DNA of 64,000 nt from Pyramidobacter sp. YE332. GTDB lineage: Bacteria > Synergistota > Synergistia > Synergistales > Dethiosulfovibrionaceae. The position numbers and the translations under genes are program-made. The DNA is taken from the NCBI RefSeq assembly GCF_033060595.1, contig NZ_CP133038.1, positions 1,302,001 to 1,366,000 on the forward strand. Reading direction: 5' to 3'. The notes beneath the pieces are model-generated. The model was given only the letters and a program-made list of their open reading frames with translations. It did not search any database and had not been told where the DNA came from. Shown here piece after piece: positions 10,403-45,667 of this stretch; the stretch's first letter is position 1, and every line of letters begins with the position of its first letter.

Positions 10403-10528
10403 TGCTCCTCTCATCATCCGACCCGCAGCATTCTCGCTCCGGTCTCTGGTTTTGGCACCACACTCCCCGTACGGGCAGGTTGCCGGGCATCGTCGGGCCA
10501 GTCCCTCAGCCGCTCTTGATAAGAGTTT
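10403..10528 (-). promoter_or_regulatory. SAM-I (S-box) riboswitch
   Basis: The minus strand reads CTTATCAAGAGCGGCTGAGG, then GGACTGGCCC, a CCCGGCAACC core, GGTGCCAAAACCAG and a closing GATGAGAGGAG. These are the conserved S-box blocks (P1, kink-turn, the pseudoknot-forming loop and J3/4) in the right order and spacing. A terminator follows at 10390-10358, so this is a transcription-attenuating OFF switch for metK. Confidence 0.95.
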
Positions 10529-42656: not shown

Positions 42657-42684
42657 TTGACGCCAATCCAACGCGTGGTATAAT
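42657..42684 (+). promoter_or_regulatory. tRNA-Leu promoter
   Basis: TTGACG (42657-42662), a 16-nt spacer, and TATAAT (42679-42684), 12 nt before the mature 5' end of the tRNA. Confidence 0.8.
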
Positions 42685-42696
42685 GCCCTGTGTCAC

Positions 42697-42781
42697 GCGG
42701 AGGTGGCGGAATTGGCAGACGCGCAAGACTAAGGATCTTGTGGAGCAATCCATGGGGGTTCGATTCCCCCCCCCCGCACCA
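42697..42781 (+). tRNA. tRNA-Leu, anticodon AAG, CCA encoded
   Basis: 85 nt. Acceptor GCGGAGG, D-arm GCG...CGC with the usual GAATTGGCAGA loop, anticodon stem CAAGA/TCTTG, loop CTAAGGA, long variable arm (TGGA/TCCA), T-arm GGGGG-TTCGATT-CCCCC, encoded ACCA. Anticodon positions 42731-42733 read AAG, rare for bacterial Leu tRNAs, which normally use GAG for CUU/CUC. The acceptor 3' strand is CCCCCGC, leaving an A-C mismatch at A5. Own promoter and a strong terminator suggest it is transcribed. Confidence 0.9.
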
Positions 42782-42792
42782 AACTGTGAACA

Positions 42793-42842
42793 CGAAAAGC
42801 GGCTCCGTACGAAGGCACGATTCGTACGGAGCCGCTTTTTCG
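42793..42842 (+). terminator. Terminator after tRNA-Leu
   Basis: Long stem CGAAAAGCGGCTCCGTACGAA (42793-42813) with its complement at 42821 on, 7-nt loop, then TTTTTCG. It also faces the methyltransferase gene on the other strand. Confidence 0.85.
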
Positions 42843-44024: not shown

Positions 44025-44040
44025 ATTTTCCTCCAGGCAT
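44025..44040 (+). repeat. Target-site duplication, left copy (ISNCY-like element)
   Basis: ATTTTCCTCCAGGCAT, identical to 45624-45639 and directly abutting the inferred end of the element. Perfect identity implies recent insertion. Confidence 0.85.
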
Positions 44041-44155
44041 GTCAATAGCCAATAAAAATGTCACCATAACTGCTCATTGAAAAAGTCACCCCCTCACACT
44101 CCCATCACAGCAAGACACCTCGAAAGAACTCCCCATCGTGCCGCCATAACAACGT

Positions 44156-45540
44156 CTACGCGAACGTACGTTTATCCCGACATGTGCTATGATATCCCTG
44201 CCTTTTGACGACGCCATGCCGCCAAGGGTGGTCCGGAGCGGGCTTGTGCGCTTTCACAAGCCCGCTTTTCCGTTTCTTTGCCGATGCCTCATCGGAGTTG
44301 ACTCGTTTTTGACTTTCAACCTCCTTCATCTCGATCCGTCTGCCCTTGGAAACACCCCAGATCCGCCCGGTCGACGTTTCACGCACCTCAACCGTCGTTT
44401 TGGCCATCCCGAGACAATCGTCCGCCGCCGGAACGTACCGACGACCTCCGTAGGAGATCATGCCGCCGTGATCCGTCCTGCGAGATTCGCGACGCGCAAA
44501 GAGAAAATCCAAATCGACTTTTCCTTCCGGCTTCACATAAACGTCCTCTCCCTCAGCCGGATTGACGGCAAACTTCCGATTGTGCCTGGCGATGAGCTTG
44601 GGCAAAACCTCGTTGGCCGCCGTGATATCCGAGACGCCAAGCAGCCTCAGCTCCCCCGGCAGCCTGTCCTGCATCGTGTTCCAAAGACGTTCGACACGCC
44701 CCTTCGCCTCCGGCGTCAAGGCAAAGATCTGCCCGATCCCAAGATCCTTCAGCCCCCGTCCGAAACAACTTAACGGCTCCCCTTCCTCGCCTCATTCCCT
44801 TCATTTTCTTCATTCCTTCCATTCCCTTCATTCCTTCCATTCCCTTCATTTTTTTCATTCCCTTCGATCCGATCCTCATCATCCTGCGCCCGTGCCTTTG
44901 GAGAGCGGAAAATCGTATGCCGGTCGCTGTAAATCGCCATCGGCAGCCCATACCCCTCGATCCCCATCCCCAGCGCGGCGACATAGCCCGCCATACATTC
45001 GTTCTCAGTGAAACAGGCGCCAGTCACGATCCCCGTCGCATCGTCAATATAAGCGTGCAGCGTCGCACGCCCGTTCCCCCTGCCAAACCATTCAAACGAC
45101 GTGGCGTCAGTCTGCCACAACATCCCCGCGGCCACCTTCCGCGGTCGGGAACGGTGAAGCTTCGGCCGCCGCCGCACACTCTTCTTGCTCCTGATCCCCT
45201 CGTCCTTCAGAATGCGGACGACACTCGAACGACTGATCCCGATCCCCTCCCGTTCGTTCAGGCATTCCGCAAAGTGAGAGAAGTTGAAATCGTAATAGAC
45301 CTCCTCATACGCCTTCAGCACCGACTCCCGAACCTCATCTCCGATCCTGCGCCGAGACGTTCTGCCGCGGTTGCCGTGAACAAGCCCCGCCGCCCCTTGA
45401 GCGACGAACCTCTTCTTGATCCTGATGATTTGCCGTTGACAGAGCCCCAGCTTTTCCGCCGCCTCCCTGTTCGTCATGCGTCCGTCGACAAGCGCTCCGA
45501 TAATCCTGATACGATCCAGTTCCTTTTGTGACAATGTCAT
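44156..45540 (-). pseudogene. ISNCY-like transposase, frameshifted
   Basis: The N-terminal part reads from the ATG at 45540 (MTLSQKELDRIRIIGALVDG, with CAGGAG upstream) through an HTH region (TNREAAEKLGLCQRQIIRIKKRF) and an integrase core (LWQTDATSFEWFG, AYIDDATGIVTGACF, YSDRHTIF), and stops at 44770. The C-terminal part (LSCFGRGLKDLGIGQIFALTPEAKGRVERLWNTMQ onward, ending at 44156) continues in the -1 frame. The break follows eight 9-bp repeats (44794-44865) that insert an (x-x-Asn)8 tract where normal transposases have a short charged linker. As it stands the protein is not made in one piece, unless by frameshifting in the G-rich run near 44780. Confidence 0.8.
44794..44865 (-). repeat. 9-bp tandem repeat, eight copies, inside the transposase
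   Basis: On the minus strand eight units of the GAAGGGAAT / GGAAGGAAT type, coding for Glu-Gly-Asn, Glu-Lys-Asn or Gly-Arg-Asn triplets. Unit length is a multiple of three, so copy-number changes would not shift the frame. Confidence 0.85.
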
Positions 45541-45623
45541 TCGCTCCTGTTTCATGAACGGTATTATCTCAGAGTGACATTTTCTTGGAACAGTTATGGG
45601 TGACTTTATCACTGAACAACGAC

Positions 45624-45639
45624 ATTTTCCTCCAGGCAT
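45624..45639 (+). repeat. Target-site duplication, right copy (ISNCY-like element)
   Basis: Identical to 44025-44040. Its last base is the first T of the helicase -35 element TTGACA. Confidence 0.85.
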
Positions 45640-45667
45640 TGACAAACACGCATGAAACGATCATAAT
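45639..45667 (+). promoter_or_regulatory. Promoter of the DEAD-box helicase
   Basis: Consensus TTGACA (45639-45644), 17-nt spacer, CATAAT (45662-45667). The transcript would have a leader of about 105 nt before the GTG start, as is common for cold-shock helicases. The insertion element ends 15 bp upstream. Confidence 0.8.

Follow-up and report, generated by a model that had tools for sequence, protein, structure and literature searches.

A tRNA-Leu(AAG), predicted to be edited to inosine by TadA, in place of tRNA-Leu(GAG) in three families of Synergistota

Deamination of adenosine 34 to inosine (A34 to I34) by TadA is general in bacteria for tRNA-Arg(ICG), and bacterial tRNA-Leu(IAG) is a known kind as well, reported so far mainly in streptococci and lactobacilli. 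The first bacterial case is the tRNA-Leu(IAG) of Oenococcus oeni, in which A34 is edited to I34, as cited in PMC8072771 and PMC8266599. In Streptococcus, TadA converts A34 of tRNA-Leu(AAG) completely to I34 in vivo, and the streptococcal enzyme also edits this tRNA in vitro (PMC11472039). A survey of the genomic tRNA database found nearly all bacterial tRNA-Leu(AAG) genes in the class Bacilli, and the Lactobacillales show a recoding of leucine codons with more CUU and CUC (PMC13249217). Here we describe a tRNA-Leu(AAG) gene of Pyramidobacter sp. YE332 (Synergistota), located in a window of 64,000 nucleotides, positions 1,302,001 to 1,366,000 of contig NZ_CP133038.1. An earlier, sequence-only reading of this window had taken A34 usually to need TadA-type deamination to inosine, which stands, and this to be known mainly for tRNA-Arg(ACG), which does not, given the inosine documented in the tRNA-Leu(AAG) of Oenococcus and Streptococcus (PMC11472039, PMC13249217). 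We consider it highly likely that a working tRNA-Leu(AAG) has taken the place of tRNA-Leu(GAG) and alone reads CUU and CUC, with its A34 deaminated by TadA to inosine. The gene and its signals are as follows.

42657..42684, plus strand: promoter TTGACG, 16 nt, TATAAT, with an extended -10 TG (consensus scoring; hexamers kept in relatives)
42697..42781, plus strand: tRNA-Leu gene, anticodon AAG, class II, CCA encoded (ARAGORN, Rfam, comparison with relatives)
42701, plus strand: A5 of the acceptor stem, opposite C68 at 42773 (sequence; the A-C is common to G001, a genome of the same genus, and sister genera have G5-U68)
42729..42735, plus strand: anticodon loop C32 U33 A34 A35 G36 G37 A38 (sequence reading)
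42731..42733, plus strand: anticodon AAG, with A34 at 42731 as the proposed TadA target
42766..42775, plus strand: run of ten C, formed by the 3' halves of the T stem (5) and the acceptor stem (5)
42794..42840, plus strand: intrinsic terminator, 20-bp stem, 7-nt loop, T-rich 3' arm (folding)

ARAGORN placed a tRNA-Leu(aag) at exactly 42697-42781, where Rfam RF00005 also matches with 51.8 bits (E 3.2e-8), and direct reading confirmed the anticodon AAG that had been assigned before. The gene joins this anticodon to the architecture of a leucine tRNA, with a long variable arm (TGGA-GCAA-TCCA, closed by the GCAA loop), the discriminator A73 and an encoded CCA. The acceptor stem, GCGGAGG/CCCCCGC, contains a single mismatch, A5-C68. 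The promoter has 11/12 consensus matches against 0.2 expected in shuffled sequences, both hexamers being kept in G001 and in a further genome of the genus (G003), and the terminator hairpin folds with -39 kcal/mol (z = -7.4), which bears out the earlier description of both signals as excellent. Since the promoter lies directly upstream and the hairpin directly downstream, the gene forms a transcription unit by itself. When the tRNA was folded freely as RNA, no cloverleaf was returned (z -0.9), a result that is uninformative for a tRNA.

In order to establish which tRNAs read CUU and CUC, the whole 2.8 Mb genome was searched with a covariance model, giving 53 matches, 52 of them above the cut-off, all of which were read with ARAGORN. 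Five tRNA-Leu genes were found, with the anticodons AAG, UAG, CAG, UAA and CAA. No tRNA-Leu(GAG) was present among the matches of this search, so that the absence of GAG, raised by the sequence-only reading as a point to check, held once all tRNA-Leu genes had been listed. The only further A34 tRNAs in the genome are two tRNA-Arg(ACG). In the reading frames of the window CUC makes up 27% and CUU 17.5% of leucine codons, together about 45%, and with no other reader for them the tRNA-Leu(AAG) cannot be spared; the share of CUC also means that this codon must be read well. Judging from the gene set, tRNA-Leu(AAG) should be the sole reader of CUU and CUC, in place of the usual bacterial GAG.

We then searched 188 genomes of the phylum with a pattern of the D and anticodon arms of tRNA-Leu carrying either A34 or G34, leaving positions 32 and 38 open. 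The A34 pattern occurred in 79 genomes, all belonging to three families, f1 (the family of the window), f3 and f8, with one match (G125) of atypical appearance; the G34 pattern occurred in 69 genomes, all outside these families. None of the 188 genomes had both patterns. Nine other families carry GAG and never AAG, and f1, f3 and f8 carry AAG and never GAG; three genomes of f11 that had escaped the pattern also carry GAG. In a second f1 genome (G006), of which 1.62 of 1.68 Mb could be read, the same five leucine anticodons were found (AAG, UAG, CAG, UAA and CAA) and no GAG. The anticodon switch from GAG to AAG is, on the evidence of these genomes, fixed in three families of Synergistota. Codon usage was compared between 10 AAG and 10 GAG genomes over 20 kb each (64 kb for the window), and no leucine codon differed significantly after allowing for GC content at third positions (GC3), nor did CUU, CUC or CUA after allowing for other codon boxes. 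A recoding of leucine codons as in the Lactobacillales was rejected at this sample size.

The switch extends beyond the anticodon. Every AAG tRNA-Leu read in the phylum has the loop CUAAGGA, and every GAG tRNA-Leu has UUGAGGG. The loop of tRNA-Arg(ACG) is CUACGGA in 13 of 14 read, and in the Pyramidobacter genome it differs from that of tRNA-Leu(AAG) only at position 35, so that C32, U33, A34, G36 and A38, the context accepted by TadA in tRNA-Arg(ACG), are all present. In the S. aureus TadA-RNA structure the C32-A38 pair caps the loop bound by the enzyme (PMC7713142). In E. coli an orthogonal AAG tRNA given the tRNA-Arg2 loop was partly converted to inosine, and every tested change at 32, 37 or 38 abolished editing (PMC11066159). 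Since several AAG tRNA bodies are nearly identical, outside the anticodon arm, to a GAG tRNA of family f10 (L389 against L084), the change was probably from GAG to AAG, with positions 32 and 38 altered too. An origin from the UAG isoacceptor, suggested by its similar loop CUUAGGA, was considered and set aside against this near-identity; the short tRNA tree does not settle the origin.

The genome encodes an intact TadA with the HAE and PCxxC zinc and catalytic motifs.

G000:C1:1453979-1454437, minus strand: tadA (NCBIfam NF008113, 159.4 bits against a cut-off of 150)

Immediately upstream of it stand tRNA-Ser(GCU) and the two tRNA-Arg(ACG) genes (G000:C1:1453979-1454818); in many Synergistota tadA stands beside tRNA-Ser(CGA), Ser(GGA), Arg(CCG) or Arg(ACG). 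Alignment of 23 TadA sequences from AAG genomes and 29 from GAG genomes revealed a single column that splits completely, with Asn in 23/23 AAG genomes and, among GAG genomes, Arg in 25/29, the remaining four having E, D, K or I. None of 14 further TadA sequences from GAG genomes has Asn (0/43 in total). Asn is also present in two drafts from the window's genus. The column corresponds to R70 of S. aureus and R74 of E. coli TadA; S. aureus R70 is listed with the partner-subunit residues by which the anticodon-loop backbone is held (PMC10586758). The Arg at this RNA-backbone contact is thus replaced by Asn in the Pyramidobacter enzyme, although Arg is usual rather than defining here, as the four differing GAG genomes also indicate. 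In G006 tadA is flanked by tRNA-Arg(UCG), which raised the idea of a TadA serving tRNA-Leu only; this was rejected because tRNA-Arg(ACG) is present there too. The coexistence of the two arginine tRNAs in G006 (L281/L299) is an unusual redundancy in its own right.

A scan of named genomes, which is not a census, detected CUAAGGA tRNA-Leu in at least these lineages among the matches listed: Clostridia, Lactobacillaceae, Streptococcus, Anaerococcus, Verrucomicrobia (including a record labelled Akkermansia), Planctomycetes, Sumerlaeota and Cloacimonadota. Most of these carriers have a TadA with Arg70; in two Cloacimonadota the position is absent, and Asn occurs in three Clostridia. A single TadA solution for all AAG carriers was therefore rejected, Arg70 being kept in most other lineages. 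In the order to which the Asn70 Clostridia belong (the order of G215; 396 genomes), Asn70 TadA is found in 33 genomes and AAG tRNA-Leu in 109, the latter in two loop classes, CUAAGGA (53) and UUAAGGG/C (56, of which 55 UUAAGGG and 1 UUAAGGC). Twenty genomes combine Asn70 with CUAAGGA, and 0 combine it with UUAAGGG/C (Fisher p 1.6e-11, not corrected for kinship). The Clostridia Asn70 enzymes branch apart from those of Synergistota, and Asn70 thus arose at least twice; within Synergistota a single origin is compatible with the data (approximately unbiased (AU) test, p 0.35). The UUAAGGG class of 55 Clostridia genomes, an AAG anticodon within a GAG-type loop, never occurs alongside an Asn70 TadA.

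Taken together with the E. coli and streptococcal studies, the loop data make conversion of A34 to I34 the best-supported reading of this tRNA, and the need for deamination stated by the sequence-only reading stands on sequence grounds. The house TadA would deaminate A34, and the resulting I34 tRNA would read CUU, CUC and potentially CUA, with the UAG and CAG isoacceptors serving CUA and CUG. The switch would have included a change of the loop from the GAG type (U32...G38) to the TadA-substrate type (C32...A38), accompanied by the Arg to Asn substitution at the site in TadA that matches R70 of S. aureus. These bacteria very probably need A-to-inosine editing for reading two leucine codons.

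The mismatch and the C run, which had been pointed out as oddities, are both real and recur in another species of the genus, G001, whose tRNA is identical, with ten C and A5-C68. The reading of the mismatch as a mark of decay did not hold: families f3 and f8 and the sister genera within f1 have G5-U68 at this site. An A+-C pair is isosteric with G-U. With A-C within the genus and G-U in the sister genera, a wobble-type pair is maintained, and A5-C68 most likely retains the wobble geometry of the relatives' pair. In G003 the run has nine C, a homopolymer difference in a draft.

We have to consider whether the gene might instead be a pseudogene, a sequencing error or an assembly artefact, the mismatch and the homopolymer marking it as broken or misread. 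The A5-C68 mismatch, the C run shorter by one in G003 and an Rfam score below that of most tRNAs in the genome would fit such a view, but the same ten C and A5-C68 recur in G001, promoter and terminator are kept, AAG is kept across three families and the genome has no alternative reader of CUU and CUC, which leaves this explanation hardly credible. The features of a tRNA pseudogene, a disrupted fold, lost signals and a redundant intact isoacceptor, were not found in tRNA-Leu(AAG), and the pseudo-tRNA accompanied by a separate GAG gene, raised by the sequence-only reading, is excluded as far as sequence can do so. A working tRNA with unmodified A34, independent of TadA and reading CUU well and CUC by A-C wobble, is improbable, if less so than a broken gene. 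The 56 genomes of the Clostridia order whose AAG tRNA-Leu lacks C32-A38, and may be unedited, speak for it; unmodified A34, however, strongly prefers U-ending codons (PMC11066159), CUC exceeds CUU in this genome with nothing else to read it, and the exact TadA-substrate loop occurs together with an intact tadA. Several observations do weigh against the edited tRNA-Leu(AAG) as sole reader. E. coli TadA does not edit streptococcal tRNA-Leu(AAG) (PMC11472039), so that resemblance of the loop to a TadA substrate may not be enough. Among the draft relatives, some have no AAG gene: G002 and G004 are 82-83% complete, and in G131, a draft of the same species, the places of both the tRNA and tadA are lost to gaps next to repeated insertion sequence (IS). 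The AAG/GAG split may also rest on a single event in the phylum, one clade with Asn70 not being rejected by the AU test (p 0.35). A true loss of the gene in G131 was rejected, given that the draft breaks at repeated IS sequence and tadA is missing likewise. The window itself has an IS with transposase-like frames at about 44039-45645; its end region matches many G131 contig ends, indicating that the IS is multicopy in G131.

The role of Asn70 is a separate matter. That it lets TadA accept A35 is offered as a hypothesis, because other AAG lineages retain Arg70; Asn70 is neither necessary nor proven, and may represent one route among several to the acceptance of A35 by TadA. We give even chances to the alternative that Asn70 is a neutral clade marker that contributes nothing to the acceptance of tRNA-Leu(AAG). 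Both AAG and Asn70 cluster by family, and the well-supported Synergistota branches offer no more than two independent contrasts; many AAG carriers (Streptococcus, Lactobacillaceae, Verrucomicrobia, Planctomycetes, Sumerlaeota and many Clostridia) keep Arg70; and 13/33 Asn70 genomes of the Clostridia order have no AAG match. Against a neutral marker, the separate Clostridia TadA clade with Asn70 has the CUAAGGA tRNA in 20/33 genomes and the UUAAGG type in none, and R70 touches the anticodon-loop backbone in S. aureus (PMC10586758). A broader proposal, which we hold only tentatively and think rather unlikely, is that inosine editing extended repeatedly to tRNA-Leu, in far more phyla than reported, by copying of the tRNA-Arg loop, and that TadA was retuned through Arg70 to Asn to accept A35 in Synergistota and separately in a Clostridia order. 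If true, nature would here have switched the specificity of TadA, the enzyme that gave rise to DNA base editors, by a single residue.

Apart from these features, the window contains an S-adenosylmethionine (SAM) riboswitch at 10408-10525 on the minus strand (RF00162, 71.5 bits). Outside the window the 3' part of tRNA-Ser(CGA) is present a second time in truncated form, about 10 kb from the intact gene (G000:C1:1441962-1442033 and 1451966-1452052), as expected from integration of an element at that tRNA.

New are the placing of the switch in Synergistota, the finding of this loop in several further phyla and the split of the TadA residue. The searchable literature yielded neither the Synergistota lineage nor the wide occurrence of the loop nor the TadA residue; an earlier mention of Synergistota is possible in two surveys by Rafels-Ybern and colleagues. 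Behind the spread of inosine tRNAs in eukaryotes lies the question of how a strict, one-substrate bacterial deaminase comes to accept further substrates. For this question the clean AAG/GAG contrast among close relatives, together with the other phyla, supplies a set of natural replicates and points to one candidate residue in TadA. As in Streptococcus and other Lactobacillales with tRNA-Leu(IAG), AAG replaces GAG and the two never occur together (PMC11472039, PMC13249217), and the Lactobacillaceae and Streptococcus loci read here have the same CUAAGGA loop, with TadA as the expected editor. Unlike the Lactobacillales, the present lineage belongs to Synergistota, its TadA has Asn rather than Arg at position 70 and no shift in leucine codons was detectable in our sample. 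Oenococcus oeni likewise has an A34 tRNA-Leu, with editing to I34 known there and predicted here, whereas in the Pyramidobacter genome the leucine and arginine tRNAs are the only ones with A34. Finally, tRNA-Arg(ICG) shares with tRNA-Leu(AAG) the predicted enzyme and the whole loop except nucleotide 35, but the substrate described here is a class II tRNA for leucine with A35 in place of C35.
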